NCBI GenBank assembly: GCA_000171835.1
Contig: ABHC01000002.1
Span: forward strand, 186,001-250,000
DNA length: 64,000 nucleotides
Direction of reading: 5' to 3'
Source: an alpha proteobacterium BAL199
GTDB lineage: Bacteria; Pseudomonadota; Alphaproteobacteria; Thalassobaculales; Thalassobaculaceae
Each line of letters opens with the position of its first letter. Position 1 is the first letter of the stretch. The notes under the pieces are model-generated. The model made no database searches and was not told where the DNA came from. It saw only the letters and a list, made by a program, of their open reading frames with translations. Positions 5,904 to 25,166 of this stretch are shown here, piece after piece. The translations under genes and the position numbers were made by a program.

Positions 5904-7604
5904 TCAATGAGTGGCGTCGGCTGGGATTGGCTTGTCGAAGCCCATGATCGGGGCGGCCGCTTCCGGATCGATCACCGCGTTGATGACGTAGGGGCCGGGG
6001 CAGGCGAGGCCACGGGCCAGGGCGGCAGCGAGGTCGGCGGGATCGGTTACGCTCTCGCCTGAGCATTTCAGCGCCCGCGCCACCTCGGAGTAATCGACCT
6101 CCATGAAATCGCACTCGACGTAGCTGCCCATCAGTAGCTCTTCCCAGTGGCGTTGGAAGCCGAGGGTGGAGTTGTTAAACACCACCATCAGCACCTTCAC
6201 GCCGTAGCGGGCGGCCGTTTCCAACTCGTTCATCACGTAGCCGAATCCGCCGTCGCCGGACACGCAGATCACGCTGCGCGCCGGGTCGGCGAGCTTGGCG
6301 CCCATGGCGGCCGGCAGACTCCAGCCGATGCCGGCGGTGCCGCGCGGCGACAGGATGAAGCGTCCGGCGGCGGTAGTGTCGAGTTGGCTCATCGCCCACC
6401 CGGTGACGTAGCTGGCATCGGTGACGATCAATGTTGATGCATCGGACACGCGGCCGATCTCGGCGAACACCCGCTCCGGGCGCATCGGTTGCCGGTCGGA
6501 GGTGGCGACCGGCGCGATCTCGCGCGCCCACTCTTCCTTCAGCCCGGCCATCCGCCCACCGTTGCCGCGGTCGGCGCGCTCCAGCCCGGCGGCGCGGCAG
6601 TGCGCCAGCAGGTCGCGCAGGGTATCGCGCACGTCGCCGACCATCGGCACGTCGGTGCGGAAGTTGCGGCCGACCTCGACCGGGTCGACGTCCAGGTGGA
6701 TCAACTTGGTTTCCGGCCTCGGCAGGGTCCAGTTGCTGTAGCAGATCTGACCGGTGCGCGAGCCGAGCACCAGCACCACGTCGGCTTCGGTCAGCAGGGT
6801 GTTCGATACCTTGCCGCGGCCGTACAGCCCGCCGGTGGTGGTACCGAGCACGCCGGCCGACAGCGGGTGATTGTCGGCGATGGCACCCTTGCCGGTCATG
6901 GTGGTGGCGACCGGGGCGGCGAACCGCTCGGCCAGTTCGGCGATCTCGGCGAACGCACCAGACGCCACGCTGCCGCCGCCGGCAACGATCAGCGGCCGCT
7001 CGGCCTTGGCCAGCAGTTCCGCGGCACGGGCCACCGAGGCGGCGTCGGCGCGCGATCGAATCGCCGGGAAATGTGCGTAGGCCGGGTCGGCGTATGGCTC
7101 ACCGTCGGTCTCGGTCGCCATCACGTCGCTCGGGCAGATCAGCGCCACCGGTCCGGGCCGTCCGGTGGTGGCGATGCGGAACGCCGACCGCACCAGTTCA
7201 GCGGTGCGCTCCGGGTAGTCGATGCGGATCACCGCCTTGACGAAGGGAGTCAGGGCGGCGGCGTGGTCGAGCGCGCTGCCGGCGTGCCTGCCCTTCAGCT
7301 TCAGCGGATGGTCCTGCACCAGGGCTATCACCGGCACCGAGGATTGCAGCGCCTCGAGCAGCCCGGTGATCAGGTTGGTCGCCCCCGGCCCGGAGGTCGA
7401 CGCGCACACCCCCGGCCGCCCGGTCGCCTGGGCGCAGCCGTGCGCCATGATCGCGCCGTGCTTCTCGTCGCGCACGGTGATCACCTTGGTGGCTGCCCGG
7501 TCGACCGCGTGGAACACGTGGATCGGATCCTCCATGCCGAACAGGCAGGTGACTCCGTGGGCCTTCAAGGTTTCGTAAAGGATGCGACCTGCGGTGGCGT
7601 GCAT
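5904..7604 (-). CDS. Thiamine-diphosphate-dependent enzyme (acetolactate synthase-like)
   Basis: A 566-residue protein with the three-domain layout of the POX/ALS family: an N-terminal Pyr domain with the activating glutamate in TVRDEKHGAIMAHG and the STSGPGATNLITGL motif, a central TPP_enzyme_M domain, and a C-terminal PP domain with the ThDP/Mg signature GDGGFGYVMNEL...NNSTLGF. It should decarboxylate a 2-oxo acid. No regulatory ilvH-type small subunit is adjacent, and the conserved acetolactate synthase context is missing, so it is more likely a catabolic or specialised decarboxylase/ligase than the biosynthetic enzyme. ATG 7604 (MHATAGRILYE) was chosen over an upstream start because it has GGAG eleven bases upstream and begins at the conserved domain. 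Confidence 0.8.
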   Translation of the reverse strand: MHATAGRILYETLKAHGVTCLFGMEDPIHVFHAVDRAATKVITVRDEKHGAIMAHGCAQATGRPGVCASTSGPGATNLITGLLEALQSSVPVIALVQDHPLKLKGRHAGSALDHAAALTPFVKAVIRIDYPERTAELVRSAFRIATTGRPGPVALICPSDVMATETDGEPYADPAYAHFPAIRSRADAASVARAAELLAKAERPLIVAGGGSVASGAFAEIAELAERFAAPVATTMTGKGAIADNHPLSAGVLGTTTGGLYGRGKVSNTLLTEADVVLVLGSRTGQICYSNWTLPRPETKLIHLDVDPVEVGRNFRTDVPMVGDVRDTLRDLLAHCRAAGLERADRGNGGRMAGLKEEWAREIAPVATSDRQPMRPERVFAEIGRVSDASTLIVTDASYVTGWAMSQLDTTAAGRFILSPRGTAGIGWSLPAAMGAKLADPARSVICVSGDGGFGYVMNELETAARYGVKVLMVVFNNSTLGFQRHWEELLMGSYVECDFMEVDYSEVARALKCSGESVTDPADLAAALARGLACPGPYVINAVIDPEAAAPIMGFDKPIPADATH

Positions 7605-7765
7605 GGGGAGGGGCTCCAAGGATGGGCGTCGAGGCGGGAAGCGAGGGGACACTCAGCGAGTCTTCCCAACCGCACGCCGGATGGGAAGCAGAAACCATGG
7701 TATCCGAGCGACCTAATCTGGGGCGCCGGAAACGATGAATGCGGTTCGGGCCGAGTTAAGGCTGA

Positions 7766-8221
7766 TCACGTCAGGTCTTTCCGCATCACCTCGGCCGTCC
7801 GGCCCGCCGCCTCGCTTGCCGGGAAGTTCAGTTCGACCTTCACGCCGTTCGGGTCGAGCAGGAACAGCTGGTAGGCGGCCACCAGGTCGGCCCGGCGTTC
7901 GGTGAAAGCCACACCCTTGTCCTTCAGGCGCGCGATAGTGGCGTCCAGGCCGGTGGCGCCGAACGCCACGTGGTCGACCACGCCGGTCCCCTGGACAGCC
8001 TGGGATTGCTGGCCGACATACTGTTGCCGCTGTGCGCTGACGGCGGCACCGCCTTCGGTCAGGTGCAGCACGTCCTTGCCGCCGAGATACAGCCAGCGCA
8101 CCGGAAACCCGAAATCCGGGTGCGGGCCTTCTTGCAGCCCGAGCACGTCGACGTACCAGTCGACGGTGGCGTCCAGATCGGCTACCTGGATCAGCAGGTG
8201 CTGTAGATCGGTCAACGGCAT
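7766..8221 (-). CDS. VOC family protein (glyoxalase fold)
   Basis: A 151-residue single-domain VOC protein beginning MPLTDLQHLLIQVADLDAT and ending with LLDPNGVKVELNF, the usual DPxGxxxE metal-ligand signature. Internal HLTEGGAA and VDHVAFGATGLD supply the other conserved histidines. It belongs to the same broad superfamily as the protein at 3471-3845 but is clearly different in sequence. It is encoded 160 bases upstream of and in the same direction as the ThDP enzyme gene, so the two could be one transcription unit; a role on the 2-oxo-acid or aldehyde product of that enzyme is only a guess. Confidence 0.82.
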   Translation of the reverse strand: MPLTDLQHLLIQVADLDATVDWYVDVLGLQEGPHPDFGFPVRWLYLGGKDVLHLTEGGAAVSAQRQQYVGQQSQAVQGTGVVDHVAFGATGLDATIARLKDKGVAFTERRADLVAAYQLFLLDPNGVKVELNFPASEAAGRTAEVMRKDLT

Positions 8222-8520
8222 GGCAGTTCCCCCGATTATCGTTGCTCGTTTTTAGCAGGATAACCGATCCGACGGCGGTCGCACGGACCGATTGACAGCC
8301 GCCACATGCTCCCCGACAGTGCCGTCATGTGCACGTGCCGCCACGGCGTCGTTCTGAAAGCCAAACCGCTCCTCCACACGGGGAACGGTCTCCTTCGCAC
8401 GTCCTGAGCGCACCGCGCATCATCTGAGCGAACGACTACCACCATCCCCGGCCGGCTCGGACGGGGATTTTCGCATGCGCGCCCACGCTCCACCGGCTCA
8501 TTCCCGAAGGAGCACGCACC
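8222..8520 (+). other. 299-base intergenic region/possible structured leader of the DapA-like gene
   Basis: No credible protein is encoded here. It lies between two divergent starts. On the plus strand it contains a direct repeat of CTGAGCG (around 8405-8433), a terminator-like hairpin (8444-8471) and finally the strong ribosome binding site gaaggagcacgcacc before ATG 8521. I did not recognise any known riboswitch consensus (TPP, cobalamin, lysine, glycine, SAM). Confidence 0.4.
8444..8471 (+). terminator. Terminator-like hairpin in the leader of the DapA-like gene
   Basis: ATCCCCG (8444-8450) and CGGGGAT (8462-8468) form a perfect 7-base stem over an 11-base loop, followed directly by a short T-run (8468-8471). 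On the plus strand this has the form of an intrinsic terminator, yet no plus-strand gene ends upstream; the next plus-strand gene starts 50 bases downstream. It may therefore be an attenuator or the end of a small RNA. Confidence 0.45.
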
Positions 8521-9438
8521 ATGCATTCCACTTTTCATTCCACGATCGCCGGCCTGTGGCTTCCGCTGATCACGCCGTTCCGCGACGGCGAGCTGGACGA
8601 AGCCTCAGTTCGTCGGTTGGTGGAGCACTATGCCGGTTTGCCGGTCGACGGGCTGATCCTGGCGGCCACCACCGGCGAGGGACTGACGCTGCATGCGGTC
8701 GAGACCGAACGCCTGGTGACAGTAGCAGCCGAGACCACACGCGGCCGGCTGCCGCTCTGGCTCGGCCTGTGCGGCAGCGACACTCGACGGATGGCGGCCA
8801 CGGTGTCGCGCACGGCGGCCTGGCCGATCGACGGCTACCTGATTGCGTGCCCGTACTATTCGCGACCGACCCAGGACGGCATCGTTGCTCACTTCGCAGC
8901 CCTGGCAGGGCGGACCGCCAAGCCGGTTGCCCTGTACAACATCCCGTATCGCACCGGGGTGAACATGACGAACGAGACGCTGCTGCGGCTGGCCGAGATT
9001 GCGAACATCGTCGGCTTGAAGGACTGCTGTGCCGATGCGGCCCAGTCTTTCGATCTGTTGACCCGGCGTCCCGGCGGTTTCTCGGTGATGACCGGCGAGG
9101 ACTCCCTGTTCTACAGCGCCCTGGTGCACGGCGCCGATGGCGGGATCCTGGCCTCGGCCCATGTCGAGACCACGGCTTTCGCCGAGGTGCGCGCGCTGTT
9201 GCGCGACGGCGACCAGCAAGGCGCGCTGTCCCGCTGGCGCGATCTGGCCGTGGTGCCGCGGTTGCTGTTTGCGGAGCCGAGCCCGTCGCCGATCAAGCAC
9301 TGGCTGTGGCGCGCAGGGCTGATCGCCAGCCCGGAAGTGCGGCTGCCGATGACCGGGATCAGCGATGGGTTGGCGGCGCGGATCGACGCCGAGATGCTGC
9401 GGCGCGGGGTGCTGGGCGCTGAGGCTGCGGTGGCGTAG
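8521..9438 (+). CDS. DapA-family class I aldolase (dihydrodipicolinate synthase paralogue)
   Basis: A 305-residue TIM-barrel lyase of the N-acetylneuraminate lyase/DHDPS superfamily. Motifs: TTGEGLTL (50-57), PYYSRPTQDG (111-120), the proton-relay tyrosine in YNIPYRTG (Tyr139), a DHDPS-like arginine (Arg144) and the Schiff-base lysine in VGLKDCC (Lys167). The arginine keeps open a true DHDPS activity, but a second, more canonical dapA exists at 24267-25166, so this is probably a paralogue acting on another 2-oxo-acid/aldehyde pair. The ATG has an AAGGAG site seven to twelve bases upstream and a long leader with a terminator-like hairpin, suggesting transcriptional control. Confidence 0.85.
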   Translation: MHSTFHSTIAGLWLPLITPFRDGELDEASVRRLVEHYAGLPVDGLILAATTGEGLTLHAVETERLVTVAAETTRGRLPLWLGLCGSDTRRMAATVSRTAAWPIDGYLIACPYYSRPTQDGIVAHFAALAGRTAKPVALYNIPYRTGVNMTNETLLRLAEIANIVGLKDCCADAAQSFDLLTRRPGGFSVMTGEDSLFYSALVHGADGGILASAHVETTAFAEVRALLRDGDQQGALSRWRDLAVVPRLLFAEPSPSPIKHWLWRAGLIASPEVRLPMTGISDGLAARIDAEMLRRGVLGAEAAVA

Positions 9439-9455
9439 GCGGGCAAGAGGCGCCC

Positions 9456-9553
9456 TTCGTGGATCGCTGCACTCACGCCTCAGGGTGATAGGCTTGGAAC
9501 CGATCAGTTTCCCCTGTCTGTCTTCCTGAGGCACCCGCGCAGCGGGTCACGAA
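9456..9553. repeat. Imperfect inverted repeat of a CCTCAGG-type dispersed element
   Basis: Two 29-base arms, 9456-9484 and 9525-9553, are reverse complements at 21 of 29 positions, with conserved blocks TTCGTG, CGCTGC and GCCTCAGG. The arms resemble the degenerate CCTTCG...GCCTCAGGGTGA intergenic repeats scattered through many alphaproteobacterial genomes (recalled resemblance). The element fills the gap between two convergent genes and could fold into a long stem that terminates both. Confidence 0.55.
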
Positions 9554-9556
9554 CGA

Positions 9557-10168
9557 CTACGCCAGCCGGTAACCGAACTCGGCGGCGGCTTCGCACAGGC
9601 TTTCATGCAGGCTCTGGGCGAAGCCGCGCATGGCGTGGACGTCGAAGGTGCCGGTGCCGCGCCGCCGATCGATGGTGACCGACAGGTGGAACAGCCCGGT
9701 CTGGGCAGCCGTGTTTTCGGCGAATGCGCGCGGGTGCAGGTCGATGCCGGTGCCTTTGGCCAGGGTGTCGCGCACCCGTGGGCCGCTCAGCCGCAGGATG
9801 GCACGGCCGTGACTCTGGTCGATCACGCTGCCGCCGGCCGGCTCGACCGCCGCGCGCAGCCGGGCCTCCAGGCCGGTGCTGTCGCTGCCGAGCAGCATCC
9901 AGCGCTCCGGACCGATCCAGATCGCCCGGAATTCGCCGCCGGAAGCGGCCCGTCCGGGCGCGGGCAGGGCGATGCCGAGGCTGTCGGACACGGCACGGGC
10001 GACCGCGGCGGCGGTGTCGCGCCGGGCGTCAAGCTGGATCGCGCCGAGTCCCAGGCGGCGGATGATGGTGACCCCTGGTCCGCTCGGGCCGGGGATGCCG
10101 TAGTCGCCTAGCACCCACACGGAGTCGAGGGCGGAGCGTCGCGGCGGCAGTGTCATGATCTCAGCCAT
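9557..10168 (-). CDS. soxG: Sarcosine oxidase gamma subunit
   Basis: A 203-residue protein of the SoxG family, the smallest of the two glycine-cleavage-T-like components of heterotetrameric sarcosine oxidase. Recognisable blocks are RRLGLGAIQLDAR, WIGPERWMLLG, SVIDQSHGRAILRLSG and ENTAAQTGLFHLSVTIDR, all in the order seen in the family. It is the last gene of soxBDAG and its start overlaps the end of soxA by eight bases. Gamma has no cofactor of its own and helps close the folate-binding side of the complex. An internal ATG at 10156 is an alternative start. Confidence 0.9.
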   Translation of the reverse strand: MAEIMTLPPRRSALDSVWVLGDYGIPGPSGPGVTIIRRLGLGAIQLDARRDTAAAVARAVSDSLGIALPAPGRAASGGEFRAIWIGPERWMLLGSDSTGLEARLRAAVEPAGGSVIDQSHGRAILRLSGPRVRDTLAKGTGIDLHPRAFAENTAAQTGLFHLSVTIDRRRGTGTFDVHAMRGFAQSLHESLCEAAAEFGYRLA

Positions 10169-13100
10169 GGAGCTTCTTGCCCTCCGGATCGACGAAGCAG
10201 GTCTCGGTCACCCGCGCCCGGACCCGGATGCCGCGCAGCGGGAACACCGCCCAGACCTCCTGGCCGATGCGCTCCCGCCCACGGGCCAGCAGGCCGAGCG
10301 AGATCGGGTGGCCGACGGTCGGGGACAGATAGGCGCTGGATGTGATGTGGCCGAGCTTGGGTACCGGAGTCGCGGCGTCCGGGTCGTCGACCAGAATCGA
10401 GCCGGCGCGGATCCGCGAAACTCCATCGACCGGCACCAGCCCGACCAGCTTCGGTCGGTCGGGATCGGTGAAGGCTGGCTTGTCGAGCATGCCGCGACCG
10501 ACGAACCATTTCTTGGTGCTGGCCATGCGCCCCAGGCCGAGATCGTCGGGGGTGGTGCGGCCGTCGAGTTCCGGTCCGGCGACGTGGCCCTTCTCGATCC
10601 GCATGATGCCCATGGCCTCAAGCCCATAAGGGCGAATGCCATGGTCTTCGCCGGCCTCCATCACGGCCTCCCAGACCGCGATGCCCCAGTCGGCCGGTGC
10701 GTTGATCTCGTAGCCCAACTCGCCGGAAAAGCTGATGCGGAAGATCCGCACCGGCACGCCGCGGATGGTCGCGGTGCAGGTCACACCGAGATAGGGCAGG
10801 GCTTCGTTGGAGACGTCGGCGCCGGGGTCGACGGCGGCCGCCAGCACCTCGCGCGCCTTCGGCCCGGGCAGCGCCATGCCGGCCCACTGTTCGGTCACCG
10901 ACGAGACCCGCACGTCTAGTTCCGGCCAGACCACCTGCAGATACCACTCCAGGTCGGCCAGCACCTTGGCGGCGTGCACGGTGGTGGTGGTCATCAGGAA
11001 GTGGGTGTCGGACAGCCGCGATGTGGTGCCGTCGTCGTCGACCAGTCCGTCCTCGCGCAGCATCAGGCCATAGCGCGCCTTGCCGACGGGCAGGGCCGCA
11101 AAGCCGTTGCTGTACACCCGGTTCAGGAACTCGGCCGAGTCAGGGCCCTGGACGTCGATCTTGCCGAGGCTGGAGACGTCGGAGATCCCGACCTTGGTGC
11201 GGGTGGTTACCACCTCGTCGGTGATCGCCCGGTCCATCGTCTCCTTCGAGACCGCCTCGCCGGGCTGCAGATAGTATTGCGGGCGCAGCCACGGCCCGGC
11301 CTCGATGAACACGACACCGTTGGCGGCATGCCAGTCGTGCAGGGCGGTCCGGCGGGTCGGGGCGAGGTGGCGGCCGGTGGTTCGTCCGGCGAACGCGCCC
11401 ATCGCGACCGGCGTGTACGGCGGTCGGAAGGTGGTGGTGCCGACCGTCGGGATCGACTGGCCGCGCGCTGCGGCCATCAGGGCATGGCCGTTGATGTTGG
11501 AGGTCTTGCCCTGGTCGGTGCCCATGCCGAGCGTGGTGTAGCGTTTCAGGTGTTCGACCGACACGAAGCCCTCGCGGTGGGCCAGTTCGATGTCCTCCAC
11601 CGTCACATCATCTTGGTGGTCGACGAAGCGCTTCACCTTCTTGCCTGGTGTGGGCGGGACCGACCAGAGTGCCTGCAACGGGGCGGTCGGCACTTCATCG
11701 GTTATGGGTGCGTCGGGTGCGGTGCCTGTGCCAAATCCGCACGACGATGCCGCTTCGGCGCCGGCCTTGAAACCGTCGGACAGGCAGTCGGACAGCGCGA
11801 ACCGGCCGCGCGCGGCACCGATGGTCACGACGTCGCTGCGCACCGAGCCTGGCAGGAACGCCGCGATCTGGTCGTTCCATTCGGCCTTACCGCCGGCGTG
11901 GCTGTGCAGGTGGATCGACGGAGTCCAGCCGCCGGAATTGGCAATCAGGTCGCACGGCACGAACCGGCTGTCGCCGACCGTCCCGCCCCGGCCGTCCAGC
12001 CGGGCGATGTCGCAGCCGACCAGTCCCATGCGGCCGTAGGCATTGGTGACGGCACTGCCTTCGGCGACATCGAATCCGGCGGCGAGCGCCCTCTCGCGCC
12101 AAGCGCCATGGCTGGCGCTGCGGGTATCGAGGATCTGCATCACGTCGATGCCGGCGGCAGCCAGGTCGAAGGCCGTGCGGTAGCCGTCGTCGTTGTTGGC
12201 GACAACCACGGCGCGCTTGCCCGGGGTCACGGCAAAGCGGTTCAGGTACGTGCGCACAGCGCCGGCCAGCATGACGCCGGGCCGGTCATTGCCGCCGAAC
12301 ACCAGCGGCCGCTCGATCGCACCGGCGGCCACGATCACCCGCTGCGGGCGGATGTGCCACAGCCGCTGCCGCGCCACATGGGCCGGCGGCACCGGCATGT
12401 GGTCGGCCAGCCGTTCGACCGCGCCGACCAGATTGTTGTCGTAGATCCCGAAGGCGGTGGTGCGGGTCAGAACCCGGACCTCGGGCAGGTCGGCCAGCTC
12501 GGCTGCGACCGATGCCGCCCAAGCGATTGCCGGCTTACCGTCCAAGGTGTCGCGCTCGCTACGCAACCGCCCGCCCAGGCCGTCGGTCTCGTCGACCAGG
12601 ATCACCCGCGCACCGGTGCGTCCGGCGGTCAGGGCAGCGGCCAGCCCGGCCGGTCCGCCGCCGACCACCAGCACGTCGCAATGGGCGTTCATGGTTTCGT
12701 AGCCGTCCGGATCGTGCTCGACCGTACCGGCCCCCATGCCGGCGGCGGCGCGGATGCGTTTTTCCCAGAAATGCCAGCCGGGGAAGCCCATGAAGGTCTT
12801 GTAGTAGAAGCCGGCGACCAGGAAGCGCGACAGCAGATCGTTCACCTCCATGGCGTCGAAGCGCAGGCACGGCCACCGGTTCTGGCTGGTCGCGCGCAAC
12901 CCGTGGAACAGCTCGATCATGGTGGCGCGGGTGTTCGGTTCGCGCCGGGCACCGCTGCGCAACTCCACCAGGGCGTTCGGCTCCTCCGGTCCCGCCGACA
13001 TGACGCCGCGCGGCCGATGATATTTGAAGCTGCGGCCCATCACCGTCACCCCGTTGGCCAGCAGGGCCGAGGCCAGGGTGTCGCCAGCGTAGCCCCGGTA

Positions 13101-24266: not shown

Positions 24267-25166
24267 ATGAGTTACGCGTTCGGAGAGCCGATGTTCAAGG
24301 GGTCCCTGGTTGCCCTGATCACGCCATTCAAGAACGGCGCGGTCGACGAGCAAGCGTTCCGAAAACTCGTCGACTTTCAGATCGCCAACGGCACGAACGG
24401 CCTGATCCCGGTCGGCACGACCGGCGAAAGCCCGACGCTTGACCACGCTGAACACAAGCAGGTCGTCGAAATCTGCGTGAACCAAGCGGGTGGGCGGGTC
24501 CCGGTGATCGCGGGCGCCGGTTCGAACTCCACGGCCGAGGCCGTGGACTTCACCCGGCACGCCAAGGAGGCAGGGGCGCAGGGCGTGCTGCACGTCACGC
24601 CGTACTACAACAAGCCGACCCAGGAAGGTCTGTATCAGCACTTCAAGGCGATACACGACAGCGCCGAAATTCCGGTGATCATCTACAATATTCCTGGCCG
24701 GTCCGTGGTCGACATGAGCGTCGAGACGATGGCGCGCCTGGCGGAGTTGCCGCGCGTTACCGGGGTGAAGGACGCGACCGCGGATCTGGTGCGGCCGATC
24801 AAGACGCGAATGGCGATCGGCGCAGACTTTACCCAGTTGACCGGCGAGGACGCATCGGTCGTGCCATTCCTGGCCCATGGCGGCCACGGCTGCATATCGG
24901 TGACGGCCAATGTCGCGCCGAAGCCGCTGTCCGATCTGCACAAGGCCTGGCAGCGTCGGGATCTGGACACGGTGTTCAGCATCAACGAGCGGCTGCAGCC
25001 GTTGCATTCGGCGCTGTTTTGTGAGACGAGCCCCGGCCCGGTGAAGTACGCAGCCAAGTTGCTCGGTTTGTGTGACGGGTCGACCCGATTGCCGATCTGC
25101 GAAATTGCCGACTCGAGCAAGCGTCGGGTCGAAGACGCGATGCGGCATGCCGGGTTGCTGAACTGA
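24267..25166 (+). CDS. dapA: 4-hydroxy-tetrahydrodipicolinate synthase
   Basis: A 299-residue aldolase for the first committed step of lysine and meso-diaminopimelate synthesis, condensing pyruvate with aspartate semialdehyde. TTGESPTL (51-58), TPYYNKPTQEG (111-121), Tyr140 in IYNIPGRS, Arg145 and the Schiff-base Lys168 in TGVKDAT are all present. Two starts have purine-rich sites upstream: ATG 24267 (gggagaggg) and ATG 24291 (MFKGSL), which would fit the E. coli length more closely. smpB follows 19 bases downstream, a common arrangement. In the 159-base divergent leader a GAGGGGC/GCCCCTC hairpin sits at 24179-24202. Confidence 0.95.
   Translation: MSYAFGEPMFKGSLVALITPFKNGAVDEQAFRKLVDFQIANGTNGLIPVGTTGESPTLDHAEHKQVVEICVNQAGGRVPVIAGAGSNSTAEAVDFTRHAKEAGAQGVLHVTPYYNKPTQEGLYQHFKAIHDSAEIPVIIYNIPGRSVVDMSVETMARLAELPRVTGVKDATADLVRPIKTRMAIGADFTQLTGEDASVVPFLAHGGHGCISVTANVAPKPLSDLHKAWQRRDLDTVFSINERLQPLHSALFCETSPGPVKYAAKLLGLCDGSTRLPICEIADSSKRRVEDAMRHAGLLN

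Follow-up and report, generated by a model that had tools for sequence, protein, structure and literature searches.

The DNA analysed here, referred to as the window, is a stretch of 64,000 nucleotides from the alpha proteobacterium BAL199. At 8444-8471 it carries a terminator-like hairpin about 50 nt before the ATG (8521) of a DapA-family gene, and the question raised by this locus is what such a hairpin does directly in front of a gene. The answer we favour, with a probability of about 0.85, is that 8292-8520 acts as a ribosome-mediated transcription attenuator which would report the supply of charged lysyl-tRNA and control a second DHDPS gene. This reading is built on comparison of homologous leaders and on modelled folding of their RNA. 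The elements involved are the following:

8292-8320, plus strand: promoter with the -35 element TTGACA (8292-8297), 17 nt of spacer and the -10-like GACAGT (8315-8320), of conserved spacing; putative start at 8327
8327-8407, plus strand: putative leader ORF of 26 codons, MCTCRHGVVLKAKPLLHTGNGLLRTS, with Lys codons enriched in frame
8357-8365, plus strand: candidate regulatory codons Lys-Ala-Lys (AAA GCC AAA); a Lys codon stands before the G-run in 30/30 leaders
8365-8389, plus strand: hairpin 1:2 inside the ORF (ACCG.UCCUC / GGGGA.CGGU), predicted by folding of a 41-nt stretch (9/200 shuffles as good)
8379-8389, plus strand: segment 2, the 5' strand of the antiterminator (CGGGGA 8379-8384 and GGU 8387-8389), with a predicted duplex with 8441-8450
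8441-8450, plus strand: segment 3 (ACC 8441-8443 and UCCCCG 8445-8450), common to antiterminator and terminator
8444-8471, plus strand: terminator 3:4, a stem-loop at 8444-8468 with TTTT at 8468-8471, from folding, conservation in 30/30 leaders and compensatory changes of the outer pairs
8487-8513, plus strand: small hairpin over the Shine-Dalgarno site (GCTCC 8487-8491 / GGAGC 8509-8513), 5 bp in the window
8521-9438, plus strand: second dapA, of DHDPS type, 305 amino acids, from TIGR00674, PF00701 and alignment with solved DHDPS enzymes

The putatively regulated gene

The product of 8521-9438 scores 209 bits against TIGR00674, a narrow margin over the cut-off of 206.15, and the canonical dapA of the window (24297-25163) reaches 340.6 bits. 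An earlier note on this DNA had called the gene an orphan of the DapA family; with a score just above the dapA equivalog cut-off it is not an arbitrary orphan. The TTGE, YYxxPTQxG, YNxPxRTG and GxKD segments of the protein align with 3pud, and we take these segments to be catalytic in DHDPS. It is likely, judging by the family scores and the alignment, that the protein functions as DHDPS. The possibility that this DapA has lost the lysine feedback site was also considered and is not used as evidence. In genome G156 the start of a dapA-like gene 47% identical to that of the window lies 14 nt past asd and behind a Lys/Thr leader (L114); by this arrangement the DapA subfamily has as its neighbour the enzyme producing its expected substrate.

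Comparison of homologous leaders

Orthologues of the protein were found in Alphaproteobacteria and on two plasmid records. Leaders were compared at 34 loci including the window, of which 30 were kept as a non-redundant set with 57-100% protein identity. L066 and L071, the leaders of which duplicate those of L034 and L043, were dropped, as were L049 and L050 of the Burkholderia group (40-42% identity), where such a leader was not found; L052-L065, below 40% identity, lay outside the comparison. Upstream of the DapA homologues at L049 and L050 there is an ORF with the terminal residues GAKAKKQPLI, followed by other hairpins; it may represent a Lys leader of a separate type.

The order of parts is common to 30/30 leaders: TTGACA-like element, short ORF with its ATG, Lys codon, G-run, stem of the CCCCGCCGG...GACGGGG type and, last, the gene. 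The leaders are related by descent, and counts over the 30 are not independent. The closest relative, G001 of the same genus, has 79% DNA identity to the window over intergenic query bases 92-294.

The protein has a match at E <= 1e-80 in 19/385 genomes of the class; in 12 of these, the genome of the window among them, the identity is at least 58%, and in 7 it is 46-51%. The covariance model R1 finds the leader before the gene in 12/12 genomes of the first group, and the R1 search together with inspection of the upstream DNA finds it directly before the gene in 0/7 of the second. Matches in the twelve are expected by construction, since R1 was built from some of the same leaders; this does not hold for the contrast with the seven. 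For each genome 10 candidates were scored under strict filters, and weak leaders could escape such a search. Several of the 46-51% homologues give the impression of having, in place of a leader, a divergently oriented regulator gene upstream. In G007 (L116 / L005) the full leader is retained before a dapA-like gene broken by stops.

The terminator-like hairpin

The hairpin of the window (ATCCCCG-G-CCG-GCT-CGG-A-CGGGGAT) folds with -15.7 kcal/mol in a 44-nt context, an energy which is unremarkable alone, as 22/200 shuffles of the 44-nt stretch fold equally well. A mechanical terminator scan of 7000-10500 returned 0 sites (chance expectation 1.4), the hairpin being missed because its U-tract is short. 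Its significance comes from conservation in homologous leaders and not from folding energy: the stem with its surroundings is present in 30/30 leaders, and with a stem z below -1 in every one of them and a mean z of -2.74 it is the strongest structural element of the set. A fixed-register count over 29 leaders (L039 left out) gives 90.6% of the terminator cells as paired, with covarying outer pairs, and the RNAalifold consensus of the 30-leader alignment consists of six terminator pairs and nothing else. The longest T-run 3' of the stem has at least 5 residues in 18/30 leaders and at most 4 in 12/30, including 4 in the window and 2 in L045, L083 and L084.

The terminator-like hairpin with a T-run that the earlier note had placed some 50 bases before the gene is therefore confirmed and well conserved among homologous leaders. 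The same note had stated that no plus-strand gene lies upstream of it; the putative 26-codon leader ORF stands directly there. A direct repeat, CTGAGCG, which it had also pointed out, is present at 8404 and 8424 but is not conserved as a feature of the leader: L044 and L045 have one copy each and the other 27 leaders none. Since two copies occur in the window alone, the repeat is probably due to chance, and it was rejected as a functional element.

Promoter and leader ORF

The TTGACA element matches at 5-6 of 6 positions in 29/30 leaders and stands 29 or 30 nt from the ATG in 27/30 (27-31 nt in all). Since the choice of the leader ATG required a TTGACA-like element 25-34 nt before it, only the narrowness of the spacing is informative. 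The -10 profile, taken relative to the ATG, has A at -11 in 22/30 leaders, T at -7 in 16/30 and C at -1 in 24/30. Such a profile puts the predicted transcription start at or beside the A of the leader ATG, and the leader gene is therefore probably leaderless, its transcript beginning at the AUG of the ORF. For the window the conserved promoter thus points to a start at 8327 rather than between 8471 and 8521, the interval which the earlier note had considered.

The sequence of the leader peptide is poorly conserved between leaders. Frame 0 is free of stops in 28/30 leaders, frame 2 in 28/30 and frame 1 in 8/30; the open frame as proof of a leader ORF was rejected, frame 2 being as open as frame 0. 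At L068 (1314-1442) a run of seven A stands at the Lys codons, and the ORF, missing its usual stop, reads through the terminator.

Lysine codons before the G-run

In 30/30 leaders the G-run is preceded, at a distance of 13-18 nt (17 nt in the window), by the start of a Lys codon, and each of the other residues found at this place occurs in at most 6/30. The part of the ORF before the G-run holds 70 Lys codons over the 30 leaders, compared with 12.6 +/- 3.1 in shuffled ORFs and with 31 and 27 AAR triplets in the other two frames. At the place of the Lys codon itself AAR triplets are also met in frames 1 and 2 (16/30 and 21/30 leaders), because many leaders carry runs of A. A single Lys codon is all that 5/30 leaders have. 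Position and enrichment of these codons suggest that the sensor is most likely a translated ORF with Lys codons.

Alternative pairings and position of the ribosome

Segment 2 lies inside the ORF in most leaders, and its G-run has two alternative partners, backward within the ORF and forward in the 5' arm of the terminator. The backward pairing, hairpin 1:2, has a mean z of -1.16 across the 30 leaders (15/30 below -1) and a register that slides; 64.4% of its cells are paired in the fixed-register count over 29 leaders, which supports it weakly. A control region at the start of the ORF gives a mean z of +0.69, with 2/30 leaders below -1. The forward pairing, the antiterminator duplex, averages -18.2 kcal/mol, compared with -16.8 kcal/mol when partners are swapped between leaders (1/2000 permutations as good) and -12.7 kcal/mol for shuffled segments (0/100 as good). 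In a fixed register 81.8% of its cells are paired and its covariation score is reached by 9/500 shuffles, which is support of a moderate degree.

The influence of translation was modelled by folding the leaders with the ribosome footprint masked codon by codon, the output being the mean probability of the terminator 5' arm being sequestered. For a ribosome with its A-site at the last Lys codon, the model leaves the RNA unmasked beyond about 12 nt, so that the G-run and the bases after it are available for pairing. Over the 30 leaders the arm is sequestered with a mean probability of 0.26 without a ribosome, 0.54-0.61 with the ribosome three to eight codons before the last Lys codon and 0.77-0.82 from two codons before this codon to the codon itself (0.77 there). 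Past the last Lys codon the value is 0.64 at +1, 0.26 at +2 and 0.13 at +3 codons, and it is 0.25 at the stop. For the window leader the probability is 0.36 with no ribosome, 0.99 with one stalled at Lys and 0.24 with one at the stop. The rise at the Lys stall amounts to 0.506, and after shuffling of the stretch between Lys codon and terminator to 0.024 +/- 0.044 (maximum 0.121 in 40 rounds).

The leaders differ in the strength of this response: the rise is above 0.3 in 20/30, and sequestration at the Lys stall is at least 0.7 in 24/30 (lower in L004, L041, L042, L067, L069 and L083), with L003, L034, L044 and L073 above 0.8 even without a ribosome. By computation, an antiterminator mutually exclusive with the terminator and governed by the position of the ribosome was thus found.

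The same layout before asd, thrS and other genes

R1 has a match at E <= 0.01 in 101 of the 385 class genomes, and over 61 relatives there are 25 at E <= 0.1. From these results 41 hits away from intact dapA leaders were examined, with L112 (incomplete flanks) and the remaining weaker hits left out: 12 lie before asd, 11 before thrS, one (L116) before the broken dapA-like gene, and the remaining 17 either precede other genes or lack a convincing leader. TIGR01296 identifies asd above cut-off in 12/12, and TIGR00418 likewise identifies thrS above its cut-off in 11/11, with a match only from about model position 165 on, so that these thrS copies are short. The asd and thrS leader ORFs were picked by eye among candidates, and those of L097, L099, L136 and L139 have poor promoter-like elements.

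As to their composition, dapA, asd and thrS leaders contain on average 2.4, 2.7 and 0.7 Lys and 1.4, 5.1 and 5.3 Thr, respectively (dapA vs thrS leaders: p about 1.5e-6 for Thr and about 2.4e-5 for Lys, relatedness not corrected). The Thr-Thr dipeptide is found in 0/30 dapA, 9/12 asd and 10/11 thrS leaders. The identity of the leader codons follows the pathway of the downstream gene. Modelling of 11 asd leaders (all but L136, for which no placement was possible) and 11 thrS leaders gave a similar ribosome-position profile, with a sequestration of 0.84-0.89 and 0.73-0.76, respectively, 1-4 codons before the last Thr/Lys codon and of 0.16 and 0.14 two codons after it. The asd leaders reach high values even with no ribosome (0.69) and with one at the stop (0.59), which counts against the simple model for asd.

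These relatives bear on a different explanation of the Lys residues, namely that a basic nascent peptide of the (K/R)K type, often followed by P, arrests the ribosome, perhaps in response to a metabolite or drug, and that the RNA switch works without any reading of lysyl-tRNA. Such a peptide would be in keeping with the basic residue pair that most leaders have at a constant position, and with Pro or Arg among the codons neighbouring Lys (6/30 leaders each). However, the residues flanking Lys differ widely, and asd and thrS relatives swap Lys for Thr in step with the pathway, so that codon reading fits and one arrest peptide does not. We consider nascent-peptide arrest improbable.

The asd of the window organism (L141; G000:C50) is preceded by an ORF ending ...FATTTTKLGKTTF with a promoter-like element of only 4-of-6; this ORF may be a Thr/Lys leader belonging to that gene. 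In the 420 nt before the main thrS and the canonical dapA of this organism the same scan gave no such leader. Several further observations were made among the hits. The short thrS genes behind Thr-rich leaders (L100, L101, L104, L105, L108-L110, L122, L129, L133 and L139) possibly encode a starvation-induced spare enzyme. Similar terminators are found behind short ORFs at L107, L123, L130 and L135; the gene behind the terminator of L130 has a sub-threshold match to DUF1127 (22.9 bits, cut-off 23.3), and for L107 and L123 there was no Pfam match. L102 and L126 are R1 hits with leader-like ORFs before genes of GNAT acetyltransferases, the ORF of L126 being rich in aromatic residues.

The Shine-Dalgarno hairpin

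The helix over the Shine-Dalgarno site is longer in several relatives than in the window, for example TCCGTCTCC/GGAGATGGA in L083. By a lax rule some helix of this kind is present in 28/30 leaders, several of them poor or misplaced, and the z of the region is -1.38 on average and below -1 in 20/30. These folds suggest that the hairpin probably adds a secondary, translational layer. The leaders of the plasmid records, L083 and L084, combine T-runs of 2 with helices among the longest (9 and 11 bp); there the helix may be the main control, perhaps as a result of a shift from transcriptional to translational regulation.

The frequency of such helices, their z values and the combination seen in L083 and L084 would also agree with mainly translational control in the whole family, where the position of the ribosome would open the Shine-Dalgarno hairpin and the terminator-like stem would be a spacer or a weak terminator. 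Yet the window has a helix of 5 bp, no part of the leader is as well conserved as the terminator stem, the alternative pairing targets the terminator arm and the T-run reaches at least 5 in 18/30 leaders, which makes this explanation decidedly improbable. Very little credence can be given to the view that a small gene or small RNA, independent of dapA and equipped with a terminator, stands before it by chance and that dapA is expressed by rare read-through or from another start. The terminated transcript of such a unit would amount to about 145 nt with a leaderless ORF, and rnTrpL of S. meliloti is such an RNA according to the available part of PMC10117765, but the layout tracks the gene (12/12 genomes at 58% identity or more vs 0/7 at 46-51%), the leader peptide is poorly conserved and the antiterminator pairing would be purposeless in a free-standing gene.

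Proposed mechanism

In the lysine attenuator that we prefer, transcription would begin at the AUG of the leaderless 26-codon leader gene, at the predicted start. When lysine is plentiful, the ribosome would pass the Lys codons and either hairpin 1:2 or the ribosome itself would conceal the G-run of segment 2; segment 3 would then be free and terminator 3:4 would form before the gene. Under a shortage of charged tRNA-Lys, the ribosome would stall at Lys-Ala-Lys, covering segment 1 to about 8374 and freeing segment 2, which would pair with segment 3 into the antiterminator and let RNA polymerase continue into dapA. The Shine-Dalgarno hairpin may supply a translational layer. Computation shows the conserved layout, the position of the Lys codon, the alternative pairings, the dependence on ribosome position and the match between codon and pathway; the start site, translation of the ORF, the response to lysine and DHDPS activity we infer from the sequence.

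The earlier note had suggested an attenuator, a riboswitch or a small RNA. Its attenuator reading is supported at the level of sequence by the conserved hairpin, the upstream promoter and the alternative pairings. Its riboswitch reading is not supported: the window has no Rfam match at threshold, and the consensus fold contains the terminator only. The ORF with Lys codons, which is the most likely sensor, had been overlooked.

Relation to known systems

Rfam gave no match in the window at the gathering score and only a chance snoRNA hit at an E-value of 5, and a search over 10 loci returned nothing relevant. The lysine riboswitch (L-box, RF00168) controls lysine-pathway genes from the mRNA leader. 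The window leader would likewise act from an mRNA leader, but it has no RF00168 match; under strict filters, with which 4/14 control genomes including E. coli and B. subtilis match, RF00168 is found in 0/385 genomes of the class.

With the leader-peptide attenuators of Proteobacteria (trp, his, leu, thr) the window leader shares the short ORF with regulatory codons, the three alternative pairings, the intrinsic terminator and an amino-acid gene; it is unlike them in having Lys codons before a dapA paralogue and, as in most leaders of its set, segment 2 inside the ORF. The attenuators then in Rfam were only those of His, Leu, Thr and Trp, as stated in the available part of a comparative study (PMC3766115). 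No description of a lysine leader-peptide attenuator was found in the literature searched, the scope of which excluded most subscription papers, and among the leader peptides described in the available parts of PMC2965389, PMC4117421, PMC4833913 and PMC6386406 there is no lysine attenuator. Because of the lack of an Rfam match and of a lysine attenuator in the literature searched, the window leader is apparently of a known attenuator kind with a new specificity for lysine. The Arg-Leu-Arg uORF motif of Bacillales hflX, as given in the available part of PMC8632094, belongs to another gene in another phylum and was set aside as unrelated.

If the proposed reading is true, lysine joins the amino acids read by leader-peptide attenuators, and a route for sensing lysine supply is suggested for a class in which no lysine riboswitch was found (0/385 genomes). 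The logic suggested is that spare enzymes, the second DHDPS and the short threonyl-tRNA synthetase, are placed under attenuators released by starvation. A wider proposal, to which we give somewhat less than an even chance, is that Alphaproteobacteria run a network of aspartate-pathway attenuators, with Lys leaders before spare dapA, Thr/Lys leaders before asd and Thr leaders before short thrS, all on one leaderless plan with the Shine-Dalgarno hairpin as a second, translational lock and possibly with a terminated leader RNA acting in trans.

Two systems of Sinorhizobium come close in the available part of PMC10117765. SEP5 is a proposed Thr- and Lys-rich leader peptide before a gene that the authors name aspartate dehydrogenase; by this description it resembles the asd leaders found here (a Thr/Lys-rich ORF, an aspartate-pathway gene) and differs from the window leader in having Thr and Lys rather than Lys alone and in its gene, and no RNA structure is described for it there. 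The other, rnTrpL / peTrpL of Sinorhizobium meliloti, is an alphaproteobacterial attenuator with a leaderless leader ORF, as predicted here for the window, but with Trp codons, trpE as its gene and a reported action in trans: the product of attenuation, rnTrpL, is a small RNA. The small RNA reading of the window may likewise apply in one sense, as it is possible that the terminated leader is itself a short RNA.
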